Shown: piece after piece, positions 5,752 through 20,076 of the stretch
Layout of the letters: each line of letters opens with the position of its first letter
How positions within the stretch are numbered: the stretch's first letter is position 1
Assembly: GCA_017302795.1 (NCBI GenBank)
Contig: JAFLCB010000001.1
Coordinates: forward strand, 248,001-312,000
Length of the DNA: 64,000 bases
DNA from: Deltaproteobacteria bacterium
Lineage (GTDB): Bacteria > Bdellovibrionota > Bdellovibrionia > Bdellovibrionales > JAMPXM01
Direction of reading: 5' to 3'
Notes under the pieces: model-generated
Told to the model about the DNA's origin: nothing
The model's database searches: none
What the model saw: only the letters and a program-made list of their open reading frames with translations
Made by a program: the position numbers and the translations under genes

Positions 5752-6496
5752 TTTGGTTTTGATAGTCGTCTTTTCACCAGCGGTCTTTGCAGAAGATAAG
5801 CTTCAGTATTTCGAATCCAAGATTGATTTCTGGGGAGATAAGAAAACTGACACATCTTCTCCGTCCGCAGTCGAACGACCAAAAGAAAAAGAAGATGGTA
5901 AGTTTCCTTGGAAGGCTTACCTCGATCCAAAAAATAAAGAATTTTTCAAGGAAGGCGATTACACGCCACCTGAACCGTTTATGGAGGTTGCGAGAAATCC
6001 CACTGATGAAAATATCAAACAGTGGTTTGAGTTGATGCAAAAAAAGAATGAGCTTCAAACACGGCTTCAGGCACGAATGCAAGAATACTTGGTAAAGAAC
6101 AACTCTCTAAAATCCCCGACAGAGAGTTTAGTCGAAAAGCCCTCGGCTCCTGTAAAAAAGGGACCGGAGGCTAGACTTGATCCATCAAGGTTCAAAGTCA
6201 GAATGTATTTTGAGTCCACATGCCCACACTGCCGAAGGATGTTTGGGGTCCTTAAAAGCCTTCAAGACGAGGGCTTTGAGGTAGAAGCACTACAGATAGA
6301 TAGCGGACCTGTGGCAATGGACGAAAAAGTTGTCCCGATTGGAAAGGCGCAAACGTCAGAAATAAAAAAACATGGAATCAACGGCGTGCCATTTTTATTG
6401 ATCGCGGATCTGAAACGCAAAGCACTGCTGCCTGCGATTCAGGGATACCATGGTCTTCAAGAAGTGAAAGCACTTTTGAAGGAAGCAAGTCGATAG
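5738..6496 (+). CDS. traF: TraF-like pilus assembly protein with thioredoxin fold
   Basis: The ATG at 5738 overlaps the end of the ATPase gene by 14 bases, has AAGAGG upstream and gives a clean signal peptide ending in AVFA. The open frame extends upstream but without a signal sequence at its start. The N-terminal half carries the TraF-type segment around FPWKAYLDP and NPTDENIKQWF. The C-terminal half is a thioredoxin domain with CPHC near residue 161 and the cis-Pro loop GVPF near 216. It is a periplasmic protein expected to help disulphide formation in pilus and channel components. The intact CxxC suggests redox activity, unlike F-plasmid TraF. Confidence 0.8.
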   Translation: MSIASLVLIVVFSPAVFAEDKLQYFESKIDFWGDKKTDTSSPSAVERPKEKEDGKFPWKAYLDPKNKEFFKEGDYTPPEPFMEVARNPTDENIKQWFELMQKKNELQTRLQARMQEYLVKNNSLKSPTESLVEKPSAPVKKGPEARLDPSRFKVRMYFESTCPHCRRMFGVLKSLQDEGFEVEALQIDSGPVAMDEKVVPIGKAQTSEIKKHGINGVPFLLIADLKRKALLPAIQGYHGLQEVKALLKEASR

Positions 6497-6511
6497 TTGA
6501 AATGAAATTGG

Positions 6512-6580
6512 AGACCTCCACTACTTAAGGTCTTCGTCCTTTTAAAAAAACAAGAAGTCTCTCCACCACAACAAGGCGAG
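6512..6580 (+). promoter_or_regulatory. Conserved leader element, copy 1 (before the pilin gene)
   Basis: A small hairpin (AGACCT at 6512-6517 with AGGTCT at 6528-6533) is followed by a 23-base motif at 6558-6580, TCTCTCCACCA...CAAGGCGAG. Closely related motifs occur before traC (10886-10908) and before the gene at 19717. All lie 27-29 bases upstream of the start codon and are preceded by a hairpin. A shared RNA or DNA regulatory site is inferred. Confidence 0.5.
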
Positions 6581-6609
6581 TTGGCTTCGAGCAAGAATAG
6601 GAGAAACCT

Positions 6610-7056
6610 ATGCTCGGAGAACGTCTATTATTGTTGGGTGGATCACTAATTCCTGGGGCAGCGATTAAGAGTCCCAACCCTCGGAGACACGAAGAATGGT
6701 TTTTCTTCGTCGTCATAACTGCCCTCATTGCACTACTTGCGCATACGCAAGCTTTTGCCGGTACCAGAATTCCAGGGGCTGATGCCAGCGATAAACTTGA
6801 AGCCGCAGGGACACTGCTTCGAATCGTGGATTCGGTGCTGTTTTCTTGGGGTGCCAGAATCTTTGCGGGCCTTTGCGTGATGTCAGCCGGATGGAATCTT
6901 AAAGAACAAAGATTTGGGATCGCAGTTCTTTGCGTTGTTGCGGCCATCGTCCTTGGAACGGCTCCAACGTGGGTAAAGAACATTTTCGACATCGGCGGTG
7001 GTGGCGGAGTGTTTTCGCAAACATTGATTCTGAGAGAGGAGTCATTAGGTGCGTAA
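6610..7056 (+). CDS. Conjugative pilin (TraA/VirB2-like) precursor
   Basis: AGGAGA precedes the ATG. A long N-terminal region ends in a hydrophobic stretch with a signal-peptidase site at about residue 51 (AFA before GTRIPG). The mature part of about 97 residues has two hydrophobic helices (near FAGLCVMSAG and IAVLCVVAAIVLG) separated by a short basic loop (LKEQRFG). This is the layout of F-type and VirB2 pilins. It sits directly before traL, as in F-type loci, and would be the pilus subunit. The long leader is like that of TraA. Confidence 0.75.
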   Translation: MLGERLLLLGGSLIPGAAIKSPNPRRHEEWFFFVVITALIALLAHTQAFAGTRIPGADASDKLEAAGTLLRIVDSVLFSWGARIFAGLCVMSAGWNLKEQRFGIAVLCVVAAIVLGTAPTWVKNIFDIGGGGGVFSQTLILREESLGA

Positions 7057-7363
7057 GCAAGAAATCTTAAAAGCGAAACATTCCTCGCTGGTGAGTCAAA
7101 CCATCGACTCGCCCATTATGGTTTTTGATTTCTGGGAACTCTCAGACGTGTTTATCGCTCTTTTTGTGATCTTAGTGTTTGGGGTCCTTTTCTATTCGTG
7201 GGGCACGATGTTCACGCTCTTGGTGCTGTGCTTAGGGTTCGGCCCAGTCATTAAGAAGAAGTACCCGAAAGGTATTTTCTTTCATTGGCCTTACTCAAGA
7301 CTTCGCATGGATTTACCAGGCATCGTAAACCCGCGCGGAGTGCGACGAAGATATTCTGATTAA
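7049..7363 (+). CDS. traL: TraL-like conjugative pilus assembly protein
   Basis: It starts at a GTG overlapping the pilin gene's end, with AGGAG seven bases before. The 104-residue product has a short polar N-terminus, a hydrophobic hairpin (about residues 32-72) and a conserved basic C-terminal tail with GIFFHWPYSRLRM. These are features of the TraL family of small inner-membrane proteins in F-type conjugation. Its order before traE, traK and traB supports the call. Confidence 0.8.
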   Translation: MRKQEILKAKHSSLVSQTIDSPIMVFDFWELSDVFIALFVILVFGVLFYSWGTMFTLLVLCLGFGPVIKKKYPKGIFFHWPYSRLRMDLPGIVNPRGVRRRYSD

Positions 7364-7406
7364 GAAGGGATTTAAAAATGGAAACAGCAAATCAAACGGA
7401 GGACCT

Positions 7407-7661
7407 ATGGAAGGTAAAAATGATGAACAACAAAAACGCTATGACCGCAAACCGAATTTCAACACTCGTGCAAAGCTCTCTCGTGATGGTCGCTTCTGGA
7501 TTATCGAACGTGTTGAAACGTGGATTCTGCCTCGTAAGTACCTTGATGTCATCGCTCAGAACCATGCTGCTGGCAATGGTGGGGCCGAGCCTTTTGAGAT
7601 CCAAGGAAAACCTAAAAAGAAAGGCAAACGAAATGCTGACAGCAATGGACAAGGGGATTGA
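7407..7661 (+). CDS. Small basic protein between traL and traE
   Basis: GGAGG lies 5 bases before this ATG, and the frame shows normal codon use rich in GNN and CGT/CGC codons. The overlapping frame that starts at 7378 reads as a Ser/Leu/Met-rich out-of-frame translation here, so this 84-residue frame is taken as the true gene. The product is hydrophilic and very basic at its C-terminus (KPKKKGKRN). It ends inside the start of traE (29-base overlap). Family not recognised. Confidence 0.65.
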   Translation: MEGKNDEQQKRYDRKPNFNTRAKLSRDGRFWIIERVETWILPRKYLDVIAQNHAAGNGGAEPFEIQGKPKKKGKRNADSNGQGD

Positions 7662-8364
7662 GGCGGCACAGGTCGCCACTCCACCAGTAGGAGTCTATAA
7701 AGGTGTCGATCTCAGAATCTTGCCAAAGTATGTGGCGTTTAAAGCTGCAATGATCAAGCAAAGGATGACGTTACAGTACATCCTAGCAATCCATATCGCG
7801 GCCTTTGCCCTGCACTTTGTGCTTGCACGAGTTGAAATTCACAGCCTCGAAACCAAACTAAGAGAGAAGGAATTTATTCTCGCTCCTGGTGTGATGGACT
7901 TCACTACAGCCTCACCGCAATCGGTTTCTGATTCCTATGTTGTAAACGCCGCGATGAGTTTTCTGGGAATGCTTGGGAACATCAATGCTTCAAATATTGA
8001 TGAGCAATATAAGCGATTGTCAAACTTCATGTCTTCAGAACTCCGAATTCAGTTTGAGGAGGAGGCTCGTGAGTGGCGAGAAACCGTAAAGGTTGAAAAT
8101 ATCTCTGAAATCTTAAGGATCACCGACCGCGAAGTGGTTGCGACAGATGAAGGCTTCTACAAAATCACAGCTATTGCACAAAGGGAGCGTTATTCGAACA
8201 GCGAAAGCCTCGGGCATGTGGATGAAGTTGTGGAAATGACCTTAAAACTCGTCCCTCCCGTGAAAGGTAAGGAGTGGTACTTGGAAATCACAAGCCTTAA
8301 GCGCGGGCGAGCTGATGGATTCAAACCAACAAGCGCAAATGGAGGGAAAAAGAATGATCGCTAA
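7633..8364 (+). CDS. traE: TraE-like (VirB8-related) protein
   Basis: The open frame begins at 7378, but its first 85 codons overlap the better-supported small gene, so the ATG at 7633 (AAAGG about 10 bases upstream) or 7645 is preferred. The 243-residue product has a cytoplasmic N-terminus with one membrane helix (ILAIHIAAFALHFVLA, near residues 52-67). A periplasmic VirB8-like domain follows, with the TraE-type stretch YVVNAAMSFLGMLGNI. TraE is part of the inner-membrane assembly platform. Its stop overlaps the traK start. Confidence 0.75.
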   Translation: MLTAMDKGIEAAQVATPPVGVYKGVDLRILPKYVAFKAAMIKQRMTLQYILAIHIAAFALHFVLARVEIHSLETKLREKEFILAPGVMDFTTASPQSVSDSYVVNAAMSFLGMLGNINASNIDEQYKRLSNFMSSELRIQFEEEAREWRETVKVENISEILRITDREVVATDEGFYKITAIAQRERYSNSESLGHVDEVVEMTLKLVPPVKGKEWYLEITSLKRGRADGFKPTSANGGKKNDR

Positions 8365-9226
8365 GTCAGACACTTTTGATTCGGACCTCGCGTCCCTAAA
8401 AGAATTGTTCAAAACATTATCGTTCAAACTAGCGACGGGCCTTTACCTCATTGGCGTCATGGTTCTGTTTATGATGCTTGTGAGTCGCGCCGATGCCAAG
8501 ACTGTTGGCTACGGTTCGCAAGTTGAGCAAATTCGGGTGAAGTATGGGGGGCCTACGATTTTTCGTTTTCCCAAAGCTGTTCAAACGATTACGGGCGCAA
8601 GCCGTTTTCAAATTGTTCCAGCAAATGATCGAGAGCCGAACTACACGGATTTGTCAGTCACTCCCAGATTCACCAATGGAGTCAATGAAGTGACTTTCTT
8701 TTTGATGGATAAATCTGTTGTGAGAACAAAAATCATCGTCAGTCCAAATGATCCTGCGGCTGATGGGCTTTATGATTTTAGATCGCGTGACGATTTAAAT
8801 TCAGGAGATAGTGAAAACGCTCCTGTTATTTCTGAAGCGGAGCTGCTTAAGGCCATGGTACGAGATGATGCCGTTGTAACAGGCTATAAAATCCACAGGG
8901 TTTCTCAAAGCGTGAGTTCTAAAAACTCAAATGCACGAGTGGAACTCATTCGCATTTATCGGGGAAATCCCTTTAACGGGTATGTTTTCAAAGTCACGAA
9001 TACAAGTTGGAAAAAGCTTGTGGAGGTCGACGTAAGACATATCTCCGTGGGTGAGCCCAATCTTGCGATCTTATCACAAAGTGATGAGGCAAGCCTTAAT
9101 CCGAAAGGCAAAGGCACAAGTGAAACTCTCGTACGTGTGGTGACAAAAAACACGGCATCAAGCAGTGACGTAATTCTCGCTATGGAATCAGAGGACCCAA
9201 AAGCTGATTCCAAGAAGGGAGAATAA
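8354..9226 (+). CDS. traK: TraK-like (VirB9-related) channel protein
   Basis: The ATG at 8354 has GGAGGG seven bases upstream and overlaps the end of traE by 11 bases; the ATG at 8315 lacks a ribosome site. The 290-residue product has a hydrophobic N-terminal export segment (about 28-50, ending SRADA). A beta-rich region with GGPTIFRFPKAVQTI and VNEVTFFLMDKSVVRTKI is characteristic of TraK, the secretin-like outer-membrane channel component that binds TraB and TraV. Its place between traE and traB matches. Confidence 0.82.
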   Translation: MIAKSDTFDSDLASLKELFKTLSFKLATGLYLIGVMVLFMMLVSRADAKTVGYGSQVEQIRVKYGGPTIFRFPKAVQTITGASRFQIVPANDREPNYTDLSVTPRFTNGVNEVTFFLMDKSVVRTKIIVSPNDPAADGLYDFRSRDDLNSGDSENAPVISEAELLKAMVRDDAVVTGYKIHRVSQSVSSKNSNARVELIRIYRGNPFNGYVFKVTNTSWKKLVEVDVRHISVGEPNLAILSQSDEASLNPKGKGTSETLVRVVTKNTASSSDVILAMESEDPKADSKKGE

Positions 9227-9228
9227 TT

Positions 9229-10500
9229 ATGCAGATGAATGAAGCCATCTTGCGTGTAAAAGAAATCGACTGGAAGAAGCACGAAAAGAGGATCAAAGAT
9301 CTAATTCAGAAGAATCCTATTCTTGTCGGACTATCCGTCGTGGCCCTACTTCTGCTGGTGAACCTGATTGGAATCGGAAGTAGTAATGATAATCACGTTG
9401 TTGAGCGCGGAGCCCCTGTAACCTTTCAAAATGGCCGCATTTTAAATGATCGTGAAAGCACATTCTACTATGGGAAAGAGCGCCTGCTTTCGCAAAAAGC
9501 TCAATCCATGCTGGAAGGTCAAGCGAAGCTAGAGGCACGACTTCAAGAGCTTGAAAAAAAGCTTCAAGAGGCGAATACGCAGAATGCAAAAGTACCTGCA
9601 TCTGTAGATGGAACTCCTCTTGTTGGTCAAACCTCACAGTCGCTTGGCGTTGCGCCCGCTCCTTCTACTGAGTCTGCAAATGCTGAAGCAGCACTTCAGT
9701 TGTATGGAACGACTGAAAATCCTCAAGGATCAAGTGTCGCCCCAGTCCGACTTCGCTCGAAGGGATCACTTATTAAGGGGCCTGATCTGATCGCCTTTCC
9801 GGTAAAAGCAGAAACAAAGACGGAAGGCGTGATGTTGCCCGCGGGAAGCTATGTGAAGGCCAAGGTTCTAACGGGAGTAGATGTTCCAGAGGGCAAAACG
9901 TATCCTGTCTTGATGGTCCTTGATTTTTCCTATGTGGCACCAAATGACCACAAGATCGACCTTTCCGGATGCTTCATGATCGCTAAAGCTGAAGGTGATC
10001 TTTCAACTGAGCGAGTTCAAATGCAGGCAACGAAAATGAGCTGCGTTTCAAAGAAAGGAAAAATGTTTGAGCGCGATGTAAATGGTTTCGTTGCCGATGA
10101 CAAAGACGGATCATTTGCCATGAAAGGGCAAGTGAACTCAAAGCAAGGGCGAGTCGCAGCAATGGCGTTCTTAGCAGGCGTTGTGGACGGAGTTGGAAGA
10201 GCCGTACAAGCCGCACAAACTACCCAAAGCACGAATCCTCTGGGTGGCGGTTCTTCGATGATGACTGGAGACGCTGGAAAATACGCAATGGCAGGAGGAG
10301 CGTCGAACGCGGCTGGCATGGTTGCTCAGTGGTACTTGCAGCAAGCACAGAATCTCGCACCGACCGTTGCTATTGGATCAGGGCGTGATGTCTGGATTGT
10401 CATCAAAGATAAAGTGAGCCTGCCAGAAGAGTTTTTCAAAAAAGAAAGGAAGAATGGAGATGAAGGCATTTACTCTTATTTCACTCGTGTTCTTGAGTAG
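9229..10500 (+). CDS. traB: TraB-like (VirB10-related) channel protein
   Basis: AAGGGAGA precedes the ATG. The 423-residue product has one inner-membrane helix (about 31-48), a coiled-coil segment near 85-115 (EGQAKLEARLQELEKKLQ), a low-complexity linker, and the VirB10/TraB beta domain. The domain includes GVMLPAGSYVKAKVLTGVD and DLSGCFMIAKAEGDL. It spans both membranes and gates the channel. The end overlaps traV by 41 bases. Confidence 0.88.
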   Translation: MQMNEAILRVKEIDWKKHEKRIKDLIQKNPILVGLSVVALLLLVNLIGIGSSNDNHVVERGAPVTFQNGRILNDRESTFYYGKERLLSQKAQSMLEGQAKLEARLQELEKKLQEANTQNAKVPASVDGTPLVGQTSQSLGVAPAPSTESANAEAALQLYGTTENPQGSSVAPVRLRSKGSLIKGPDLIAFPVKAETKTEGVMLPAGSYVKAKVLTGVDVPEGKTYPVLMVLDFSYVAPNDHKIDLSGCFMIAKAEGDLSTERVQMQATKMSCVSKKGKMFERDVNGFVADDKDGSFAMKGQVNSKQGRVAAMAFLAGVVDGVGRAVQAAQTTQSTNPLGGGSSMMTGDAGKYAMAGGASNAAGMVAQWYLQQAQNLAPTVAIGSGRDVWIVIKDKVSLPEEFFKKERKNGDEGIYSYFTRVLE

Positions 10501-10825
10501 TATTATTGGCGCCTGCGCCAGTACCAATCAGAAATCACTTCTTGAAGAGCGGGCCGAATATGGTTTCACCGCTCCACCTATGAATATGGCCGGGAAAGGC
10601 GGTGTAAAATATGTTCCGACCCGAGTACCAGAACAAGTGGTAGTGGCTTGGCTTCACGCTAAAGAGCTTCCATCAAAAGATTATTTTTGGGGATCTTGGC
10701 TTTCAATCGTAGTTGCTCCCGAGGGTTGGGAAATGAAAAAGGTTGTGGTTCCAAAATCCGAAAAGAAACAAACGAAGCGCACACCAGACCGCCCAACTGT
10801 ACCGCTAAAGCCGAAGCGTCCGTAA
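10460..10825 (+). CDS. traV: TraV-like outer-membrane lipoprotein
   Basis: AAGGA is only 3 bases from the ATG at 10454 but 9 bases from the ATG at 10460, so 10460 is preferred. The 121-residue product has a signal peptide with lipobox IIGAC and a basic, Pro-rich C-terminus. TraV anchors the TraK/TraB complex to the outer membrane. The assignment rests on lipidation, size and position between traB and traC; sequence similarity to TraV is weak by eye. Confidence 0.65.
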   Translation: MKAFTLISLVFLSSIIGACASTNQKSLLEERAEYGFTAPPMNMAGKGGVKYVPTRVPEQVVVAWLHAKELPSKDYFWGSWLSIVVAPEGWEMKKVVVPKSEKKQTKRTPDRPTVPLKPKRP

Positions 10826-10843
10826 GAACTTAAGTTTCGTAAG

Positions 10844-10908
10844 GGCTCTACAACTTTCTGAGAGCCATCAAAAATTTAGAAAAAGTCTCTCTACCAATTT
10901 CAGGCGAG
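10844..10908 (+). promoter_or_regulatory. Conserved leader element, copy 2 (before traC)
   Basis: A hairpin, GGCTCT (10844-10849) with AGAGCC (10861-10866), is followed by TCTCTCTACCA...CAGGCGAG at 10886-10908. This motif matches copy 1 at 17 of 23 positions and ends 27 bases before the traC ATG. The hairpin could also attenuate or end transcription after traV, although no long T-run follows. Confidence 0.5.
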
Positions 10909-10935
10909 CGGCGGACCAAAGAAAGAGGTCTACTG

Positions 10936-13458
10936 ATGCTTGGATTAGAAAAATCAACTAACGAAATAATTGAATCAACACTGGCAAATCGTGCGAAGTT
11001 TGTTCATGCACTTTTTGAGCGCCCTGATTCATTTGCTAAGATTCTTCCGTATGAAGAATATCTCCATGAAGCGCGAATGTTTGTGCTCAAGGACGGGTCT
11101 CTTGGAGCCGTGTTTGAGCTAGGGCTTGTAGAGCATGAGCCGATGGAGGCTCCTCGGATTGTTGAGACAGTTGAAGGTTTAAAATCTTGGTTTTCTCTAC
11201 CTGAGAAATGTACGCTTCAAATTCTCTTCGATCAAAGCCACATTCCAGCGCGCGATCCAATTTGGAAATTTGAAGCGAGCGGCTTCAAATCCCCTCACCC
11301 AATTTCAAAAGCAATCTACGAAGCAAGACTAGAGACGCTTAAAGGTTTCTGTGAAGGGCGTCATCCCCTTTCACCTATGAGAAGGCGCGCCTTCTTGTCG
11401 ATTCGCTACTTTCCTGACAAAGAAAATCAGAAGTCCATTCTTCGCCTTATGGAGCGAGGCGAAGGGCTTCTATTTAACACTATGAACGAAATGACAATGG
11501 AGGTGTCTGAATTTTCCCAGACTCTCGCGCAATTTGTAGATAGCTCCAAAGTTCCTCTCAGTAGAGTGGATGGAGCAGGTCTTGTTGAAGTGCTTCGACG
11601 GTTCTTTAATCCCAAAGAATACCTAGAGCGAGATTTTGCTCCTTTCAATCCCCATATCTCTATTTCAGAGCAAATCGTTTATGCAGGACCAACTGGAAGC
11701 CTTGAGGGGCTTGAGCGAGAGGGACTTAAAACCCGCACGATCACTCTTAAGACAAGTCCAAGGCGTGTGACCCCTGGTGGAACGGCGAATTTCCTTGCGC
11801 TCAATTTTCCATTTAGGCTTTCGCTAAATTTCAGTTTTCCGAAGGCAACAAAGATTAAAGGCTACTTCGATACGAAGGAGTTTTTTCTTCAAAATAGTCC
11901 AAGCGCCAGGGCTCGCCGCCAACAGCAAGAACTTCGTGAAATTCAAGAGCGTCTTGCACATGACGAACGATGTCTCTTCATGACTTTTTGCGTGGTGATT
12001 GAGGGCGAGACCGAAGAGATTCTTAATCAGCGCACACGAGCGATTACCAGTGTTTTTCACAATGATCTTGAGTGCGAAGTCATCAAGGAAGAAATGATCG
12101 GATTTGGGTTGTGTCTCAATTCCCTACCGCTCTTTTACTCTCCAGCGGCAGACCATTCTAGTCAGCGGTTCATTCGCATAATGAATAAGGATGCAGCTAA
12201 ACTTCTTCCTATTTTTGATTCCTATCGCGGCATGGAAAACCCGATGCAGCTCTATCTATCAAGAGAAAACAATCTCGTGAGACTTTCGTGGGCCGCGAAT
12301 CCGATCTCAAATCACACGGCAATCCTTGGCGACACAGGCTCTGGCAAAAGCAAATACGCCTTGGACGCTGTTCAGGCGCTCAAGCTTAGAAATCCAGAGC
12401 CGCTCTGTTTTGTAATCGACAAACGAGCAAGCTGTGAAGCGCTCTGCCGTGAGTTCGATGGAGATTTAAGCGTCTTTGATGCAAACCGCGAGATGCCGTT
12501 TTCATCGTTTCGTGGAGCTTTTGACGATGTAAAGGTGCAGTTTCTCACAAAACTGATTCTGACTGCCGTGAAGCTCACTAGCCAATCTTTTGAAGTTGAG
12601 AGCCATCATATGGCAGTGGTGTCTCGCGCGCTGAAAGAAGCCTACCTCAGACGCGCAAGAGAGCGCGGCATTGTTTACCGCGAAGGACAGCTCATTGAGG
12701 CTGATTCCAATATCGAAGTCTCTGTTTCAATGGACGACGTCATTGCTTCGATGTCGGCGCTCACTTCTGAGAGTGAATTTGAAACTCTCAAAGATCAAAT
12801 TGATGAGCTGATTACAAGGCTCATGCCTTTTTTTGGCGATGGAAACTATGCACCTTTTTTTCGAGGACGAGCAAAGTCACAAAAATCTTCTTCGCGAAAG
12901 TTGCTCTATGCCTATGACTTGGAGGCTTTGGATTCTGACGAAACACTCAAAGTGCTCATGAGCATGTGCGTGATTCAAGAAATCATAACGACCATGGCGC
13001 GCCCTGAGAATTTAAAACGTGGAGGAGTTCTCTACATTGAGGAACTCGGATGCTTAGGAAGAGATAATCCAATTGTTGGTGATTTCGTGATTGAGGCCGC
13101 TGAACGCATGAGAAAGATGGGATTTTTCCTGATCGGTGTGGCTCCCAGTCCCAGAGTGTTCTTTGAGACTGAAGCTGGCAAGGCCGTATGGGGCGGAGCT
13201 GATAATTTCTTTTTCTTAAAAATGAGCCCCGATAACGTGCGCTACCTCAAAGAGCACTCCTCTCTGTTAGGCCCGGCACCGCTTGAAATTATAGGAAGCC
13301 TTGAAACCCGAATTAACGAATATGCCGAGGTCTTTTACACGAATAAGACAGGCACTCATCAGGGAGCGTTTCGCTACGTTCAATCTCATCTTGATCGAAG
13401 TTCTTCAGTGAACAGCGAGGGCGAAAAGGAAAAAGCTCGCGCAGAGGTTTCTGCATGA
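10936..13458 (+). CDS. traC: TraC-like (VirB4 family) ATPase
   Basis: AAAGAGG precedes the ATG. The 840-residue product has Walker A GDTGSGKSKY near residue 465 and Walker B VLYIEELG near 699 followed by a Q/N-type motor region, as in VirB4/TraC. These ATPases energise pilus assembly at the inner membrane. The length fits the family (about 800-870). It is the largest enzyme of the locus and starts its own leader-controlled segment. Confidence 0.9.
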   Translation: MLGLEKSTNEIIESTLANRAKFVHALFERPDSFAKILPYEEYLHEARMFVLKDGSLGAVFELGLVEHEPMEAPRIVETVEGLKSWFSLPEKCTLQILFDQSHIPARDPIWKFEASGFKSPHPISKAIYEARLETLKGFCEGRHPLSPMRRRAFLSIRYFPDKENQKSILRLMERGEGLLFNTMNEMTMEVSEFSQTLAQFVDSSKVPLSRVDGAGLVEVLRRFFNPKEYLERDFAPFNPHISISEQIVYAGPTGSLEGLEREGLKTRTITLKTSPRRVTPGGTANFLALNFPFRLSLNFSFPKATKIKGYFDTKEFFLQNSPSARARRQQQELREIQERLAHDERCLFMTFCVVIEGETEEILNQRTRAITSVFHNDLECEVIKEEMIGFGLCLNSLPLFYSPAADHSSQRFIRIMNKDAAKLLPIFDSYRGMENPMQLYLSRENNLVRLSWAANPISNHTAILGDTGSGKSKYALDAVQALKLRNPEPLCFVIDKRASCEALCREFDGDLSVFDANREMPFSSFRGAFDDVKVQFLTKLILTAVKLTSQSFEVESHHMAVVSRALKEAYLRRARERGIVYREGQLIEADSNIEVSVSMDDVIASMSALTSESEFETLKDQIDELITRLMPFFGDGNYAPFFRGRAKSQKSSSRKLLYAYDLEALDSDETLKVLMSMCVIQEIITTMARPENLKRGGVLYIEELGCLGRDNPIVGDFVIEAAERMRKMGFFLIGVAPSPRVFFETEAGKAVWGGADNFFFLKMSPDNVRYLKEHSSLLGPAPLEIIGSLETRINEYAEVFYTNKTGTHQGAFRYVQSHLDRSSSVNSEGEKEKARAEVSA

Positions 13459-13517
13459 CCTGCATTTTGAAACCAAAGGTCAGCACCAAGAAACTAAAAC
13501 GAAAGGATTTTGAATGA
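13455..13517 (+). CDS. 20-codon mini-ORF coupling traC to traH
   Basis: The ATG overlaps the traC stop (ATGA at 13455-13458) and the TGA overlaps the traH start (ATGA at 13514-13517), so the mini-ORF exactly bridges the gap. AGAGG lies seven bases before the start. The peptide (MTCILKPKVSTKKLKRKDFE) is strongly basic. It is either a coupling leader that carries ribosomes from traC to traH or a chance frame. The double overlap and ribosome site favour translation. Confidence 0.45.
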   Translation: MTCILKPKVSTKKLKRKDFE

Positions 13518-14839
13518 AGATATTTTTTGCGACGTTTTTTATGATTCCAGGAGTTCTTTTGGCTGGTGAAAACGATTTTACCTATAGGAATCGCACAGAG
13601 TTCAAGGCCAGTGATTACCTATTTCAGCACCAGGGTCTTAAGAAAGATCCCGTGTTCGATGAATATCGCACAGTGGATCTTGGGCTTAATCTTGGAATTG
13701 GTTCAGACTGTGGTCGCGTAGACTTTAGAAGCACACTCCAGGCAAGTCTTAAGAACATTCTAGACAGCCGCTACTTTGGCGATATGGGAAAAGACATCAT
13801 GGCAGGTTCACCAATGCTTCTTGCCTGCTATTTTAGTCCAACTTGGTGTGCGATCCTCAAGCACTCTCAGATCAACGCAAACTTCATGTCTCAAATGCGG
13901 CTGAATCAGTGCTCGCTCATGGACAAGTACACGGACTCTCGTGTGCAAGAATACTATGAGGAACGGCAAGTGTGCGTTCATCGTGAGATCGAAAAAAACG
14001 GCGGGAACATCGAGTCTGCTATGCAGGCTTGTAACTCAAGTCGTGTGTGGGACACAGATATAGCCAATTGGTCGGGCTCGAAGTACGGAGAGAAAAGTAG
14101 TTCCAACAAACTCATTGGAAGTTCAGCTCAATGGGCGGGGCTTGATACCAAAGAAGCAACGCCAACGCTCAATCTCGTTAAGAACCTAGTGGGAGATACT
14201 GTTATTACCCGAGGTAAAGTATCGGTCGAATACGGCGATAAACCCTTTGGGATCACGCCAAGGACTCACCTCGCAGGAATTGAACGAGACGTTCAAGAAA
14301 AGCTCTGCTTTGGACTTATGCGTAAGATCGACGATGCCGGTCGTAGCGGGACTGGTGCCGTGATTCGTGGAGCTGATCTTGAGTCTATCACCGGGGTCAA
14401 AGACCAAGTGCTGCTAGATCGTCAGACTCTCAGAAACTTATCCGTCATGCCCTATAGAAGCCGCGCGCTCTACTGTCAGCGCCTTGCAAGCTCTATCGCA
14501 GTTGCACGGTTCTCAGACGATATGAACCGCTCGCTTGATGTTCTCGCGTTAGCTGCGCAGAACCCGAACTTACCGGAGCGCAGAAAAAAAGAGATCGAAG
14601 ATAAACGAGACACGCTAAAAAAGTCCGTCGAAGTCACGCTGGAACTTCAAAGGGAAAGAAATGCTCCTTTAAATGAAGTGGTCTCACAGATCAATTCCGA
14701 GGGTGAAGGCATTCACCTGGATTTATCCAGAGAACGAATCGTTCGCGACCAAACAGAACTTGAAGCACACACTACAAAGGGCCGTTTTTTCGATTGCGCT
14801 GATGGTGTCATGTGCGAGCAAACGGGAGGCTCACGATGA
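13514..14839 (+). CDS. traH: TraH-like conjugative pilus assembly protein
   Basis: The 441-residue product has a signal peptide ending near GVLLA. A region with LGIGSDCGRVDFRSTL and a hydrophobic stretch near residues 95-115 (MLLACYFSPTWCAIL) follow. The pattern and spaced cysteines resemble the TraH family and the related ICE family TIGR03755 (PFL_4711-like). These are periplasmic or outer-membrane proteins of F-type pilus assembly. It lies between traC and the TraG-like gene. I am fairly sure of the broad family, less of the exact subfamily. Confidence 0.72.
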   Translation: MKIFFATFFMIPGVLLAGENDFTYRNRTEFKASDYLFQHQGLKKDPVFDEYRTVDLGLNLGIGSDCGRVDFRSTLQASLKNILDSRYFGDMGKDIMAGSPMLLACYFSPTWCAILKHSQINANFMSQMRLNQCSLMDKYTDSRVQEYYEERQVCVHREIEKNGGNIESAMQACNSSRVWDTDIANWSGSKYGEKSSSNKLIGSSAQWAGLDTKEATPTLNLVKNLVGDTVITRGKVSVEYGDKPFGITPRTHLAGIERDVQEKLCFGLMRKIDDAGRSGTGAVIRGADLESITGVKDQVLLDRQTLRNLSVMPYRSRALYCQRLASSIAVARFSDDMNRSLDVLALAAQNPNLPERRKKEIEDKRDTLKKSVEVTLELQRERNAPLNEVVSQINSEGEGIHLDLSRERIVRDQTELEAHTTKGRFFDCADGVMCEQTGGSR

Positions 14840-15057
14840 AACTTGAGGGAAAGCTTTTAAGAAATTCTTGCGAACGATTTGAGGTCGCCGACTTTGAACT
14901 GACATCAGGAACCGCTGTGGAAATCGAGATCAACAAGACATGGCTTCTGGGTGTCATCGAATACTGGAAGGACGCCTACTATTGGTTTTCAAAAGTAGAA
15001 GGAATTGCAGTGATCTTAAGAAATGGGATCAACGCAAGACTTCCAAGACGATCTTAG
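14836..15057 (+). CDS. Small protein resembling DUF5348
   Basis: The start is the ATG at 14836 (ATGA overlap with the traH stop, GGGAGG upstream). The 73-residue product looks like a small beta protein: ELTSGTAVEIEINKTWLLG followed by a Tyr/Trp-rich strand and a final basic Arg tail. The pattern is reminiscent of DUF5348 proteins found in mobile elements, but that is a by-eye resemblance. Function unknown. Confidence 0.6.
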   Translation: MKLEGKLLRNSCERFEVADFELTSGTAVEIEINKTWLLGVIEYWKDAYYWFSKVEGIAVILRNGINARLPRRS

Positions 15058-15071
15058 AGAAAGGAGGAAGC

Positions 15072-16607
15072 ATGTTTTCAAATACAGCGTATGAGGCACT
15101 TTACCAGATTATTGGTCTTAGCCTTCATGCGAAGTTCATTGAAATCATCACGGGTGAGACTTTCTTTAAGGGGCTCACCCTGATGATCTTTGGTGCGGTG
15201 TTTTTCATTACGATTTTGAAATTCATCTCGCGCTATATTCCTGGATCGTTAATCGAAAGAAAACAGATTCCAATTTCAAGATTCATAAAGGTGGTTGCCT
15301 GTCTTTTCTTAGGGCTTGCGCTCTTAAGAGTGGGCTCCGATGCCAAAGTAAAGGATTACCAAGGAAAGAATTGGGCCGATAACCCCTATGTGCAAAAGCA
15401 TGTGGAAAGCCTTCAGTCCCAGTACAAAGTGAGCTTCGTCTTTGAAATCTTGAGCCATACAGCGGAAGAAATCACTGGGCTACTGTCGCGGGTGATTGAC
15501 CAAGTGTTTGCACAGGGAAACTCGCAGCTCACGGCTCCGAATATGTTCTATAAGGCCATCATGTTTGCAGGCATATCGACAATCGAGGATGCCCAGGTGC
15601 GTGACCAGCTTAGATTTTATTCAGAAGAGTGCTTCACGAAAGTTTTGCCTTCCATCGGTGAATTTAAAAATCGTGGAGCTATTGATGGGTTCTTCATGGC
15701 GAGCAAACAGATCGACCAAGAACTATCAAGTCTTCCGATTGAGTTGGGTACGGGAAAGACTACGAACTGTCTTGAAGTCAAAGACTCTACGGTTCAAAAG
15801 CTGAACGAATACGGTGATGCCAAGATGAAGGGATTCTCAAGAAAGGTCCCTTACTCGGAAGCCATTGTGTACTCATACGGCGGTAAGTTTGATCCTAGTT
15901 ATTACAAGCACTATGCGTCCTCTATGGCCCTTGCAAATTTCTACGCTGACCAGCACGAGGGCACGCTTGGAATTCAGAAAGGCGCTGAAGTTCCAGGAAC
16001 CGCAAGCAAGTCATTTCAAACCTTGGGCCGCTTCTTTAGCTGGGACGGGATTTTGGGAATACTGAACCTTCGTGAGCTTCAAGGCGCATCCGAGTCAGCC
16101 AAACGTGCGCAAGAGTTTAGCGAGCACTTAGCCCGTGCTCCGCATGTTGCGGGCTTTATCCGAATGCTGTTGATTGCGATTTTTCCGTGGCTGATGTTTT
16201 TTGTCGTAGCGGGCAAGTGGCGAGTTTTGGTTGTTTGGTTCTGGATCTATTTTTCAGTCTTACTTTGGACACCACTCTGGACGCTTCTCTACCACATTAT
16301 GCTCGGGATCTCGATGTCGTCTGAGGTGATGGAATCCTTTGGGCAGTTGACAGATGGGGTCTCGCTTTATGCTGCGGCTCTAGTGAACCACAGGCTCTAT
16401 TATATGTTTTCGATTTACTCCTGGGTGCAGCTCCTTGTCGCGACACTGACGACAGGATCGGCCTTTATGTTCTTAAAGCCGATGCTGGGAGAAGGAGATT
16501 CGGAATCTAAGCCTGAATTTCTCGAACCTCTTTCAAGTGCCACAACGGGCGCTGTGGGTGGCGGTGTTAAGGGCGCGGCTACTGGCGCAGTTGGGGCGGT
16601 TCTATGA
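15072..16607 (+). CDS. traG: TraG N-terminal-like membrane protein
   Basis: AAGGAGG precedes the ATG at 15072; the frame is open further upstream but only as an overlap of the previous gene. The 511-residue product has hydrophobic segments at about 30-50, 75-95 and several between 355 and 490. Its C-terminus is Gly/Ala-rich (GAVGGGVKGAATGAVGAV). This matches the N-terminal membrane part of TraG, needed for pilus assembly and mating-pair stabilisation. The long periplasmic C-terminal half of F TraG (about 900 residues) is absent, so entry exclusion through it is not expected. Confidence 0.75.
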   Translation: MFSNTAYEALYQIIGLSLHAKFIEIITGETFFKGLTLMIFGAVFFITILKFISRYIPGSLIERKQIPISRFIKVVACLFLGLALLRVGSDAKVKDYQGKNWADNPYVQKHVESLQSQYKVSFVFEILSHTAEEITGLLSRVIDQVFAQGNSQLTAPNMFYKAIMFAGISTIEDAQVRDQLRFYSEECFTKVLPSIGEFKNRGAIDGFFMASKQIDQELSSLPIELGTGKTTNCLEVKDSTVQKLNEYGDAKMKGFSRKVPYSEAIVYSYGGKFDPSYYKHYASSMALANFYADQHEGTLGIQKGAEVPGTASKSFQTLGRFFSWDGILGILNLRELQGASESAKRAQEFSEHLARAPHVAGFIRMLLIAIFPWLMFFVVAGKWRVLVVWFWIYFSVLLWTPLWTLLYHIMLGISMSSEVMESFGQLTDGVSLYAAALVNHRLYYMFSIYSWVQLLVATLTTGSAFMFLKPMLGEGDSESKPEFLEPLSSATTGAVGGGVKGAATGAVGAVL

Positions 16608-16637
16608 ACCATCTCCACTGCGTCTTTGTATTTGCTC

Positions 16638-16662
16638 GGAGGCAGGCTTTCAGCCTGCCTCC
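16638..16662. terminator. Strong hairpin after the transfer operon
   Basis: An 11-bp perfect inverted repeat (GGAGGCAGGCT, loop of 3) follows the TraG-like gene by 31 bases. There is no T-run after it; a G-rich stretch and a second weak inverted repeat (AACCAC/GTGGTT) follow. It probably ends or stabilises the transfer-operon mRNA. Confidence 0.5.
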
Positions 16663-16787
16663 TTGGGGGTGTGGGGGCGTAGCAACCACTCTTTTGCGGG
16701 TGGTTGGTACCAACACCCTATCTTGCCCCGAACCAAAACTGCCCAAATTATATGCAACTACAAATGAACCAAACTAAAGGAGAAAAC

Positions 16788-17153
16788 ATGCACAAACCAA
16801 AATTTAATAACAACACACGATACTTTTTGAACCAACTTCCGTTTCTGATCCTAATGCTCGCACTTACTCTTCAAATATTTCTCACTGGCTGCGCAAGCAT
16901 CAACCGGAAGGAAGAATCCGTTCAGACGATTCTTCAAAAAGAAAATCTGCTGATTGAAAAACTTAAAGTGGAGCGCGGACAGCCAGAGGTTGCTCAAGCC
17001 GTATCTGCAAACGAAGTTTTAAAGAAAGCAGAAGCACACTTGATCTTAGGTTTAGATGAGATGCTGAAAGCAAACGAAGCGATCAAAACTAAAATCTTAA
17101 AACAACAACCGAAGGAGGTTGAAAATGGGGAAAGTGAAAGAACTCACGATTGA
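16788..17153 (+). CDS. Small lipoprotein with helical C-terminus
   Basis: The ATG at 16788 has AAGGAG upstream, and the product begins with a basic N-terminus and a hydrophobic run ending in the lipobox FLTGC. Mature residues form a charged helical region (QTILQKENLLIEKLKVERG). At 121 residues it resembles small lipoproteins of conjugative elements in size, but the family is not recognised. It overlaps the next gene by 29 bases. Confidence 0.65.
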   Translation: MHKPKFNNNTRYFLNQLPFLILMLALTLQIFLTGCASINRKEESVQTILQKENLLIEKLKVERGQPEVAQAVSANEVLKKAEAHLILGLDEMLKANEAIKTKILKQQPKEVENGESERTHD

Positions 17154-17304
17154 TCCAGGCGAAGAAGTTGTGAAGGCTGTAGGTGAACTTAGTGCGACAG
17201 TTAAAGATGCGGCGAAGACCGCCACTGACACAGAAGTCGATCACGAGGAAGTCAAAAACTGGCTCACAACAATTTTCAAAGCACTCGTCGCCGCTTTTAA
17301 ATAA
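17125..17304 (+). CDS. Hypothetical protein, 59 aa
   Basis: AAGGAGG lies seven bases before the ATG at 17125. The product is acidic and helical with a hydrophobic C-terminal end (NWLTTIFKALVAAFK), perhaps a membrane-interacting amphipathic helix. It is nested against the lipoprotein gene end and before the candidate oriT. Family not recognised. Confidence 0.55.
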   Translation: MGKVKELTIDPGEEVVKAVGELSATVKDAAKTATDTEVDHEEVKNWLTTIFKALVAAFK

Positions 17305-17395
17305 AGCGGCAGAGTGAAGGAAAAGTCCGACCCTTTTTAGGGAGGACATGAACATAAAATCGAGATGAGACCTACGACAAGTCGCGGTCTTCTTA
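17290..17395. other. Candidate origin of transfer (cluster of inverted repeats)
   Basis: Three inverted repeats lie within 105 bases directly upstream of the mobC-relaxase pair. They are GCCGCTTT/AAAGCGGC (17290-17310), GTCC-GA-CCCT/AGGG-A-GGAC (17325-17347) and AGACC/GGTCT (17368-17390). MOBP origins usually sit next to the relaxase genes and contain such repeats with a nick site nearby. Position and structure are seen; the function is inference, and the nick site cannot be named. Confidence 0.45.
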
Positions 17396-17421
17396 AAGCG
17401 CACAAAGTTTAAGGAGAAACC

Positions 17422-17781
17422 ATGACCGAACTTCAAATCACAACTGAACCAAAAAAACTTCCTTCGTCCCACGTTCGCTTCACAGAAAAGGAACTTGCAA
17501 TCGTTCAAAAGATGCAAAAGGACACTGGCCTTTCCATCCCCGACCTTTTGAAAAAAGCTCTCTTCAGGCGAGTTGATCTCGTGCGCCCCCTTCTTTCCAA
17601 AGAGGACGTAGATCGTGTGATGGTTGAGCTACGCCGTCAGGGTAACAACATCAACCAAATTGCAAAGCACATCAACTCAGGTGTGCAGCAGGGATGGAAT
17701 CAATCTTTCAATAGTCTTGTGAGCGCATACGTTAGCATTCGCCACATGATCTCGGTGAACAATGGCGATAGCCAAGCTTGA
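17422..17781 (+). CDS. mobC: MobC-like relaxosome accessory protein
   Basis: AAGGAG precedes the ATG. The 119-residue protein has an N-terminal ribbon-helix-helix-like region (HVRFTEKELAIVQKM). The MobC signature ELRRQGNNINQIAKHINSG lies near residues 72-90. MobC proteins bind oriT and help the relaxase open the DNA. The gene overlaps the relaxase gene by 20 bases, the usual arrangement. Confidence 0.85.
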   Translation: MTELQITTEPKKLPSSHVRFTEKELAIVQKMQKDTGLSIPDLLKKALFRRVDLVRPLLSKEDVDRVMVELRRQGNNINQIAKHINSGVQQGWNQSFNSLVSAYVSIRHMISVNNGDSQA

Positions 17782-19618
17782 ACCTGTCGAGCACCTTAAA
17801 GAGTACGAATTGTACACTTTGAAGGATAGAGAGGCCGAACTTTTAGAAACAGGACCAGATACGGAGGTGGGAGACATGACCACTGCAATTCAAGACACGC
17901 ATGAGCGCGTTCAAAATAAAAGAATGCAGTATCTTGCCTACACAATGTATCAAAGTTGGCCTGAGCAAGAGAGCGGAATCTTTCCCCTTGAGAAGTACAA
18001 TCAGATGGGCCGAGAGCTTGGGGAAAAGTTTGCGCCTGGGCATCTTGTGTGGGTGACAACTCACACAGATAAAAAGAACACACACAATCATATTACGATT
18101 TGTTCCGTGCACTCAGAGACTGGAAAAGCACTCGCTTTAAAAAAAGCGGACATTCGTCGTCTCCATGAGATTAACAATGGAATAGCCAGGGAAAATGGAC
18201 TTTCCCTCAATCTTCCGCGCGTCAAAGATCCGACACTCAATTTACCAGATCACGTTAGACAAATGTTTGCTCAAGGAAAGCCGCATTGGATGATTCACAT
18301 GGTTGAAAAGATCGACTTTGCACGGGCCATTAGTACGAACTTTGACGAGTTCAAATCGCATCTGCATTTTCTCGGTGTCGGCACTGTGATTGAAGACAAA
18401 AATATCACTTACTCATATGGCGGTGATGAGAAGCGAAAAAAACGCGGTAAAGGATTAGGGACATTTTTTGATAAAGATGGGCTGATGAAAGCCTTCAAGG
18501 AGAATGATGAGAAATTCGCAAAGTATCCAGGACTGCGAGAGCAATTGCGTTCCGATGTTCGAGCGGCCTTTGACGGAAAAGGAAATCCTTTGGGAACTCC
18601 AAGCGATTTACTTCTTGAATCAAAAAGCCATCCAAGACTCGGAGACAAGGATTACAGCAAGTTCACAAAGGTTGCTCGTCGGGATAATCATCGTGAGCTG
18701 CCTGCAATTTTTGATGAGCGCGGCGGTGTGCTTCACGGTGAGATGAAAAAAGCCCTGGGTGTGAGCATTTTGGAATACTGTGCGCAGAACAAAATTAAAA
18801 CCTCATTGAATCAAAAGGGCGAAACTGTTCTACACGGGCGCGATTTTGTTCTGCTTAAAGAATTTGAGTGGATCAATACAAAAAATCGCACCAAGGGTAA
18901 CATCATTGATTTCGTGGGACTTCACGAGCGAACAGGTTTTCTCGGCGCTATTGCAAAGATCAATAACAACCCAAGGCTTTTGCTCCTTGAGCAAGTGGCT
19001 GGCGCATCTCAACGCGGATACCAGTCTTTTCATATTCCAGGACCTGAGCGCGCATCTGCACAGGCGGGCTCTCAGATGTTGCACAAGTTCTTGAAGGCTC
19101 GCGGCATCCACGGAGACGCAGCGAAAACTCTTTTAGAAAGTAAAAGTGTGCACGTTGGTAAAGACATGAGCGTTTGGCTCATGGGCGACAAAGGAGATTC
19201 TGCAATTGAGTTTCGTGAAGAACCGAATGGCAAATGGAAGTCAAAGCGCCATGGAAATCCTAGCGGAGTTTTCCTAGAAACTCACACCAAATCAAAACAT
19301 GCGGTCGTCTACCGTGACCCATTTGAGTTCGCACTTTTCAAAGCAAAGGGCGGACTTACTGGTCATAGAGAAGCAAATGTCCTGGTTATGCTTGGTGACG
19401 ATGGTTCAGATCAAAGACTTGATGAAATGCTGGCCCTGCATGAGCACATCACGCATGTGCATTTAGCACACATGATGGCTCGTGACGGACAAGCGCGGCA
19501 TGAGCAAAGAGCGCAAAGTTTAACGAAACGATTCAACCCTTTTGATATTCAGATTAAGGAGCTGAAACTCTCGGATCTTGGCAAAGATCGCTCGCATGGT
19601 CCTGACATTGGTTTTTAA
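17762..19618 (+). CDS. MOBP-type relaxase with a primase-like C-terminal half
   Basis: The N-terminal domain carries the metal-binding motif HTDKKNTHNHI (residues about 100-110) typical of MOBP relaxases. Candidate catalytic tyrosines are Tyr15 and Tyr18; the classic motif I is not obvious. The relaxase nicks oriT, stays covalently bound to the 5' end, and is exported through the coupling protein. Residues about 320-600 resemble the DUF3991/Toprim region of MobA-primase-like proteins (GNIIDFVGLHERTGFLGAI near 381, VLVMLGDDGSDQR near 540). The 618-residue length fits a relaxase plus a second domain. The primase-like call is inference from pattern. Confidence 0.82.
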   Translation: MAIAKLEPVEHLKEYELYTLKDREAELLETGPDTEVGDMTTAIQDTHERVQNKRMQYLAYTMYQSWPEQESGIFPLEKYNQMGRELGEKFAPGHLVWVTTHTDKKNTHNHITICSVHSETGKALALKKADIRRLHEINNGIARENGLSLNLPRVKDPTLNLPDHVRQMFAQGKPHWMIHMVEKIDFARAISTNFDEFKSHLHFLGVGTVIEDKNITYSYGGDEKRKKRGKGLGTFFDKDGLMKAFKENDEKFAKYPGLREQLRSDVRAAFDGKGNPLGTPSDLLLESKSHPRLGDKDYSKFTKVARRDNHRELPAIFDERGGVLHGEMKKALGVSILEYCAQNKIKTSLNQKGETVLHGRDFVLLKEFEWINTKNRTKGNIIDFVGLHERTGFLGAIAKINNNPRLLLLEQVAGASQRGYQSFHIPGPERASAQAGSQMLHKFLKARGIHGDAAKTLLESKSVHVGKDMSVWLMGDKGDSAIEFREEPNGKWKSKRHGNPSGVFLETHTKSKHAVVYRDPFEFALFKAKGGLTGHREANVLVMLGDDGSDQRLDEMLALHEHITHVHLAHMMARDGQARHEQRAQSLTKRFNPFDIQIKELKLSDLGKDRSHGPDIGF

Positions 19619-19629
19619 GAATTTGCCCA

Positions 19630-19687
19630 CAAACTAAAGTTTGAGGCCGTACAAAAAATTATTCCTCTCCTACCACATCAAGGCGGA
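19630..19687 (+). promoter_or_regulatory. Conserved leader element, copy 3
   Basis: A small hairpin (CAAACT with AGTTTG) is followed by CTCTCCTACCACATCAAGGC (19665-19684, ending GGA at 19687). The core ACCACA-CAAGGCG differs from copy 1 at one base. The motif ends 29 bases before the ATG at 19717, matching the spacing of copies 1 and 2. Confidence 0.5.
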
Positions 19688-19716
19688 CGAGGTTTCACAA
19701 AAAGGGAGAACCTTTT

Positions 19717-20076
19717 ATGGAAACTTCAGAAGCAAAAAAGCTCGTAAAGCCTGCAACAAAAAAATCAAGTTCGTCTGCAATCCGCGTCTCTATTGAGACA
19801 AGAAAACGGATGCTTTCGGAGCTTGCCAAAATCAATAAGAAGCAATTCGGAAAGCGCGTCAAACTTGATGCGCTTTTGCTGAAACTTCTCCCGAAGCTTA
19901 CCGCGCAAGACGTAAGCGAGCTTCAGGAGGCAAGTCTTACGGGACGTGACCGCATGGAGCAGAGCTACCGTGCCTATTGCACTAAGCACGGACACGTCAC
20001 CATGGACGAGTATTTGTCGCAACTTTTGAAACTAGATAGCGACAAAACTCAAAACCAAAATGCAGCAAATTCTTGA
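19717..20076 (+). CDS. Small basic, probably DNA-binding protein
   Basis: AGGGAGA lies before the ATG. The 119-residue product starts with a Lys/Ser-rich tail and then has SAIRVSIETRKRMLSELAKI, which fits a ribbon-helix-helix or similar basic DNA-binding fold. A helical C-terminal part follows. It sits between the relaxase and the excisionase-like gene and carries the shared leader element, so a regulatory or relaxosome role is plausible. Family not firmly recognised. Confidence 0.6.
   Translation: METSEAKKLVKPATKKSSSSAIRVSIETRKRMLSELAKINKKQFGKRVKLDALLLKLLPKLTAQDVSELQEASLTGRDRMEQSYRAYCTKHGHVTMDEYLSQLLKLDSDKTQNQNAANS

Follow-up and report, generated by a model that had tools for sequence, protein, structure and literature searches.

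The first approximately 21.7 kb of the stretch analyzed here (hereafter the window: 64,000 nucleotides of contig JAFLCB010000001.1, positions 248,001 to 312,000, from the Bdellovibrionales genome assembly GCA_017302795.1) belong to an F-type conjugative element, in which the genes for a pilin-like protein, TraC, MobC and a basic protein of 119 amino acids (119 aa) are each preceded by a copy of the same small hairpin. We propose, with a probability of about 0.68, that these copies belong to a single family of cis-acting messenger RNA (mRNA) hairpins that controls the translation of transfer genes in mobile elements of Bdellovibrio-related bacteria, acting on initiation when located in leaders and on -1 frameshifting when located within genes, via a trans-acting factor. 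The RNA structure, its positions and the associated frame pattern can be read directly from the comparison of sequences, and that comparison is the foundation of the proposal.

A first-pass annotation of the window had described a 23-base motif at 6558-6580, 10886-10908 and 19665-19687, and we find these three copies as described, each upstream of an ATG (6610, 10936 and 19717). The copies are real, but the pattern as literally written needs one indel to fit them, and a search with that pattern plus mismatches was rejected because the indel causes it to miss them. The pattern CTCTCN{0,1}YACCANNNNNAGGCG has three exact matches in the window, as compared with 0.00 expected (100 dinucleotide shuffles), and the whole 4.23 Mb genome likewise has three (none for the reversed-pattern control). 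Of 140 other genomes from the order, three have it (G078, G113 and G126); there the matches adjoin homologues of the window element's genes (G078 and G113) or precede a homologous pilin (G126). The core YACCANNNNNAGGCG alone occurs in the chromosome at chance level (eight forward and seven reverse matches, the control giving 4 and 12). As the annotation's reading demands, the chromosome is not rich in the motif, and related elements keep it.

The motif is not, as had been supposed, a linear box lying behind a hairpin; it is itself the loop and inner stem of an RNA hairpin with a conserved internal and apical loop, the two arms of which are contained in its CTCTC and GGCG(AG) segments. The layout is a variable outer stem (P1), an asymmetric internal loop (5' NA, 3' A or C), a short inner stem (P2) and a loop of 6-8 nt that tends to ACCACAAA. 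Both the minimum free energy and the centroid structures predicted by RNAfold give P1, a 2x1 internal loop, P2 and the loop for all four window copies (Table 1), and RNAfold recovers the structure in nearly all relatives. The fourth copy, before mobC, had been mentioned as a possible weaker relative of the motif and proves to be a real one, with the same architecture and CG/CG at the base of P2. The distance from hairpin end to start codon, which had been called fixed, is only similar among copies: 21, 23, 29 and 24 nt in the window and 21-37 nt in clear cases elsewhere, with the pilin leader of G058a further away at about 44. A ribosome-binding site sits between the leader hairpin and the start codon. 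The small, differing hairpin that had been seen upstream of each window copy is borne out by RNAfold; an extra hairpin of this sort usually precedes the conserved one and, at the 119-aa gene and mobC, often has that same NA/A internal loop and a longer P2.

The evidence for a conserved RNA structure comes from 39 copies, placed in a template alignment made by hand. In this set 90.0% of pair cells are paired, compared with a mean of 49.7% (standard deviation 2.1) after shuffling and at most 41.5% for slid partners, and 144 cells are changed on both sides, compared with 50 in the shuffled sets. The inner pair of P2 is standard in every copy and is of four types (GC 17, CG 15, UA 4, AU 3). The most constant bases are those that are unpaired or adjoin unpaired ones: the A before P2 (38/39), an A or C after P2 (39/39), the outer P2 pair (C in 37/39, G in 36/39), and an A (33/39) and a C (35/39) in the loop. 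In close relatives the arms around the motif are complementary though changed (GAAGUC/GACUUC at the pilin gene, CCUGUC/GACGGG at traC of G078, and GCCUCUUC/GAGGAGGC at the 119-aa gene of L077), so that the structure is conserved with compensatory changes, as expected of a structured leader RNA.

Each window copy has counterparts of this kind. The pilin-leader hairpin (35.0 bits with model R1) is kept with changing arms in G078, L077, L079, L080 and G126; that of traC has, in G078 and L080, CU/AG as P2 and an outer arm of CCUGUC paired with GACGGG or GGCGGG; that of mobC (20.7 bits with model R2, whose training set includes the window copy) has counterparts in G078 and L081; and that of the 119-aa gene is kept in G078, G113, L077, L079 and L081, and also in G058a, G029b and G015.

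Because the alignment had been built around the structure, we added less biased tests. Where the core alone (CGRCCACAAACG(AG)) matches in mobile elements, arms of 4-11 bp, or one-mismatch arms (L245), stand on either side, and 103 of 104 matches in viral contigs have arms of 4 bp or fewer; the match in viral contig L229, with a GU-rich flank of 14 bp and no A before P2, was treated as chance. The hairpin-model searches covered representative genomes of one phylum, in addition to this one pattern scan of viral contigs. The first general model, R2, was too unspecific for use genome-wide, its chromosomal matches looking like chance. Model R3, applied to 369 genomes of the phylum, gave 16 matches of at least 31 bits, 7 of which were outside the training set, and all 7 sit at a traF or traB frameshift site (see below) or in a mobC leader. 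A 30-bit model match at L295:3378-3406 (G103), which has the arms GGACC/GGUCC and is followed by a purine-rich stretch, is outside recognized conjugative genes and may be a further leader or chance. Rfam contains no family matching at gathering score, only chance-level matches appearing at relaxed E-values.

F-type conjugative elements are not the only carriers of the hairpin: mobC-relaxase elements unrelated to them, from the same phylum, have it too. Small elements whose relaxase differs (G022/G192, G196, G194 and G266) have a leader copy before mobC-relaxase; in the G194 element one also precedes the recombinase operon, and in G131 one precedes an HTH_17/integrase pair. The leaders of the pilin, traC, mobC, 119-aa and HTH_17 genes all place the hairpin in the same context, on the sense strand before the gene. 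That several units share one common regulatory signal, as the first-pass annotation held, is well supported; the single hairpin-binding regulator that it also envisaged is something that we infer.

A second set of relatives, these distant ones, carries the hairpin within traF and traB, and in G029b also within virD4, at 18 junctions with one consistent arrangement. At all 18 a slip site in the 0 frame (A_AAA_AAG, once A_AAA_AAA, and A_AAG in most traB genes) is followed 3-5 nt downstream by the hairpin (0.23 expected from shuffles), the 0-frame stop falls 0-72 nt past the slip site, and the homologous protein goes on in the -1 frame. The -1 part matches the window protein by blastp with E values of 1e-69 to 0 at 17 junctions; the remaining one, in traF of G038b, is shown by its frames. 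Among other AAAAAAG heptamers in the same elements, 6 of 150 have the hairpin at this spacing. A_AAA_AAG is the slip site of dnaX (PMC5009743). Transcriptional slippage is excluded for most traB sites, as AAAG alone is too short for polymerase slippage, and readthrough or bypass of the TAG in G038a and G029a was dropped, both genes continuing in the -1 frame. The 0-frame TraF product is mostly just a signal peptide with a short tail, indicating that frameshifting would decide whether TraF exists. In these genomes, apparently broken copies of traF, traB and virD4 are therefore probably intact genes, to be annotated as frameshift products.

Splits of virD4 in three distant elements (G058a, L053; G038a, L055; G029a, L057) were considered as frameshifts and rejected, being stop/restart junctions without the hairpin. 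They lie about 1.5 kb into the gene, at about the same place, with a Shine-Dalgarno sequence and an overlapping or nearby ATG, and virD4 is apparently made there as two proteins by translational coupling.

The in-gene and leader copies are arranged in a nearly exclusive manner: no element combines a traF frameshift with a pilin leader, and a traB frameshift and a traC leader occur together only in G015. The control point therefore seems to stay roughly constant in the operon while the mechanism changes, and synthesis of the transfer apparatus may be gated post-transcriptionally at about the same operon points by either mechanism.

We infer a trans-acting factor, its identity and the sign of the regulation. 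The factor, probably a protein, would recognize the invariant internal and apical loops, because these are the parts preserved between unrelated elements, in leaders and genes alike, whereas the arms vary freely. In leaders it would set the access of the 30S subunit; repression is favored, because the hairpin ends within reach of the initiating ribosome and its bound form could hinder 30S loading, although activation is possible. Within genes the hairpin, whether or not protein is bound to it, would stimulate the -1 shift, failing which TraF and TraB would be truncated; the gate-like layout of the in-gene copies suggests regulation, though the hairpin alone could act. Candidates for the factor are MobC, the 119-aa protein or a host protein. 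The small elements examined also encode a MobC (NikA-like), whose relationship to the MobC of the window is detectable. Autoregulation by the 119-aa protein was set aside, since the leaders of 20 paralogues have no hairpin and the model of the protein matches no known fold. A more far-reaching version of the proposal, which we regard as tentative and on balance doubtful, is that a single trans-acting protein reads one hairpin across the conjugative-element family and switches the transfer machinery through initiation control and -1 frameshifting, the small mobilizable elements carrying the hairpin before mobC in order to obey the same signal. If so, bacteria would possess a regulon governed by regulated, protein-directed frameshifting.

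Several observations weigh against the proposal. Recognizable copies of the hairpin are absent from elements G016 and G058b, and the close relatives L077 and L079 are without those of traC and mobC. Loop sequences in the window's group have moved away from ACCACAAA, and P1 is short or imperfect in two copies (the G058a pilin leader and the L081 leader of the 119-aa gene). Folding energies of the window copies are unremarkable (z from -0.02 to -2.0), so that the case rests on comparison; the covariation alignment was hand-made around the structure, and RNAalifold found no structure in an automatic MAFFT alignment, because differing loop lengths shift the 3' arm. The window copies are intergenic, with no slip site or frame change, and the traF and traB of the window are uninterrupted; the two functions are therefore linked only by homology of the hairpin.

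The hairpin could instead be purely structural, serving with no trans factor as a leader stabilizer or ribosome pause and stimulating frameshifting by stability alone. The variation of the loops in the window's group would agree with this, and simple stem-loops are enough for dnaX-type frameshifting (PMC5009743). We consider it unlikely, because stability would not preserve the A before P2 (38/39), the outer C-G pair of P2, the A or C after P2 and a ACCACAAA-like loop across unrelated elements; predicted stability is also modest, P2 being just 2 bp.

It is quite improbable that the copies are double-stranded DNA operators, that is, imperfect inverted repeats bound by a transcription factor that acts on several element promoters. 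The sites do lie just upstream of genes, there are four per element, and their arms are inverted repeats; an operator would keep its letters, however, whereas here the arms differ in sequence between copies and yet stay complementary, even in the 2-bp P2, around a conserved center that is asymmetric. In relatives, moreover, the same hairpin lies within coding sequence beside -1 slippage sites, 3-5 nt past them and with a change of frame. Of the two kinds of regulator left open by the first-pass annotation, the RNA-binding protein is for these reasons favored and the transcription factor disfavored.

A mobile repeat (a REP-like or bypass-like hairpin) spread by transposition, the frame changes being damage that slippage makes tolerable, would account for copies at several places per element and in unrelated elements, and for in-gene copies that follow TAG. 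We give this very little weight: the copies show no scatter in chromosomes and occupy orthologous positions across elements, always in a leader or 3-5 nt past a slip site, and the arms of copies within one element are wholly different, which is unexpected from recent transposition. A relaxase or MobC recognition site on single-stranded DNA (oriT-like) is hardly credible, for although many copies outside F-type elements are leaders of mobC-relaxase operons, elements have several copies, before start codons or at slip sites, and a better oriT candidate exists elsewhere, namely a conserved G-rich inverted repeat followed by CCCTATCTTGCC (window approximately 16665-16755). This candidate oriT, with a nic-like site, is a strongly conserved block (GGGGGTGTGGGGGC ... 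CCCTATCTTGCC) that lies before a lipoprotein gene and contains an inverted repeat; the block is also found at L077:15596, L079:15831 and L081:4352, and at the same place in G078.

The cis-acting hairpin family that we favor is carried, in the window, by an element that encodes a coupling protein, a T2SSE-type ATPase, TraF-like and pilin-like proteins, TraE, TraK, TraB (TrbI), TraC, TraG_N, a MobC/NikA-like protein, a relaxase, the 119-aa protein, an HTH_17-like protein and a tyrosine integrase (Table 1). Close relatives occur in metagenome-assembled genomes of Bdellovibrionaceae (TraC identity about 83-84%), more distant syntenic ones (29-52%) throughout the order, and others elsewhere in the phylum; no TraC was found in viral contigs, and on plasmids only distant relatives were found. 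The gene at 19717 had been called DNA-binding-like, but no DNA-binding family or fold is detectable in its 119-aa product, for which we found no Pfam family, no relative in the Protein Data Bank (PDB) and no fold match of its model. The small basic proteins of its family are multi-copy in the phylum, with approximately 50 homologues in 17 of 20 genomes.

Table 1. Hairpins and genes of the conjugative element (window coordinates; hairpin segments are written 5' arm / internal loop / P2 and loop / internal loop / 3' arm)
Feature	Position	Strand	Description
Pilin-leader hairpin	6554..6588	+	GAAGUC-U-CUC / CA / CC-ACAACAA-GG / C / GAG-UU-GGCUUC; ends 21 nt before ATG 6610
traC-leader hairpin	10885..10912	+	GUC-U-CUC / UA / CC-AAUUUCA-GG / C / GAG-C-GGC; ends 23 nt before ATG 10936
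mobC-relaxase-leader hairpin	17366..17392	+	GAGACC / UA / CG-ACAAGU-CG / C / GGUCUU; ends 29 nt before ATG 17422
119-aa-gene-leader hairpin	19664..19692	+	CCUC-UCC / UA / CC-ACAUCAA-GG / C / GGA-C-GAGG; ends 24 nt before ATG 19717
Upstream small hairpin, pilin copy	6511..6534	+	GAGACC/GGUCUU; relatives have a hairpin at the same place with other arms
Upstream small hairpin, traC copy	10844..10866	+	GGCUCU/AGAGCC; from sequence and fold
Upstream small hairpin, mobC copy	17328..17350 (approximate)	+	GA/A internal loop; GUCC-GA-CCCU..AGGG-A-GGAC
Upstream small hairpin, 119-aa gene copy	19625..19647	+	CA/A internal loop; GCC-CA-CAAAC..GUUUG-A-GGC; covaries in G078 (CGGC/GCCG)
TraF-like gene	5546..6496	+	Pfam PF13728; start codon uncertain; uninterrupted in window
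Pilin-like gene (TrbC/VirB2)	6610..7056	+	Weak Pfam match (E 0.003, below family cut-off); downstream of pilin-leader hairpin
traB (TrbI/VirB10)	9229..10500	+	Pfam PF03743; uninterrupted in window
traC (TraC_F_IV)	10936..13458	+	Pfam PF11130; downstream of traC-leader hairpin
mobC (NikA-like)	17422..17781	+	Downstream of mobC-leader hairpin; followed by relaxase
Relaxase	17762-19618		Follows mobC; Pfam basis for mobC-relaxase PF21983, PF05713, PF03432
119-aa basic protein gene	19717..20076	+	Downstream of fourth hairpin

Other features of the relatives were seen in passing. The G078 element (L052/L051; also L080) has an insertion of approximately 1.5 kb between traV and traC, upstream of the traC hairpin, that is absent from the window. 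In traG of G058a (approximately position 19000 in L053) an 8-bp duplication, TTATGATC, breaks the frame, and may be a mutation, an assembly error or a restart. Three small mobilizable elements have a long open reading frame overlapping the relaxase gene in another frame (L253:3696-4307, L255:5110-5493 and L256:5303-5836), in a MobB-like position and each with a predicted hydrophobic segment.

Among known systems, the leader copies recall the operator of the MS2 coat protein, which likewise is a small hairpin next to the ribosome-binding site, its loop conserved and one A left unpaired; the hairpin described here differs in ending about 20-30 nt upstream of the start codon and in having another loop, and its binding protein is only postulated. 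Literature searches of partial coverage returned no description of this hairpin family. We know of no structured RNA with this double role, as leader for initiation and stimulator of frameshifting, in a single set of genes, and, to our knowledge, protein-directed -1 frameshifting is known only from animal viruses.

The in-gene copies in relatives resemble the -1 cassettes of dnaX and insertion sequences (A_AAA_AAG or A_AAG with a downstream stem-loop; PMC5009743) in their slip sequences, short spacer, downstream hairpin and -1 shift. Unlike those cassettes, one hairpin family with a conserved internal and apical loop is here reused in several genes, and also in leaders that have no slip site, and the shifted product is the full-length protein. 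Ribosomal frameshifting likewise restrains the transfer of an integrative conjugative element in the case of FseA of ICEMlSymR7A (+1 frameshift of msi172/msi171; PMC5009743), but there the shift is +1 rather than -1, the product is a transcription activator rather than parts of a type IV secretion system, and no hairpin is shared. Cardiovirus 2A (PMC5472766) is a model of how a protein acting in trans can switch on -1 frameshifting by binding a stem-loop; it differs in belonging to an animal RNA virus and in being an identified protein, where ours is putative. Should the loop of the hairpin bind a protein, bacteria would have a device like protein-directed viral frameshifting, controlling horizontal gene transfer in predatory bacteria, and at approximately 30 nt the element is small enough for tests in reporter constructs.

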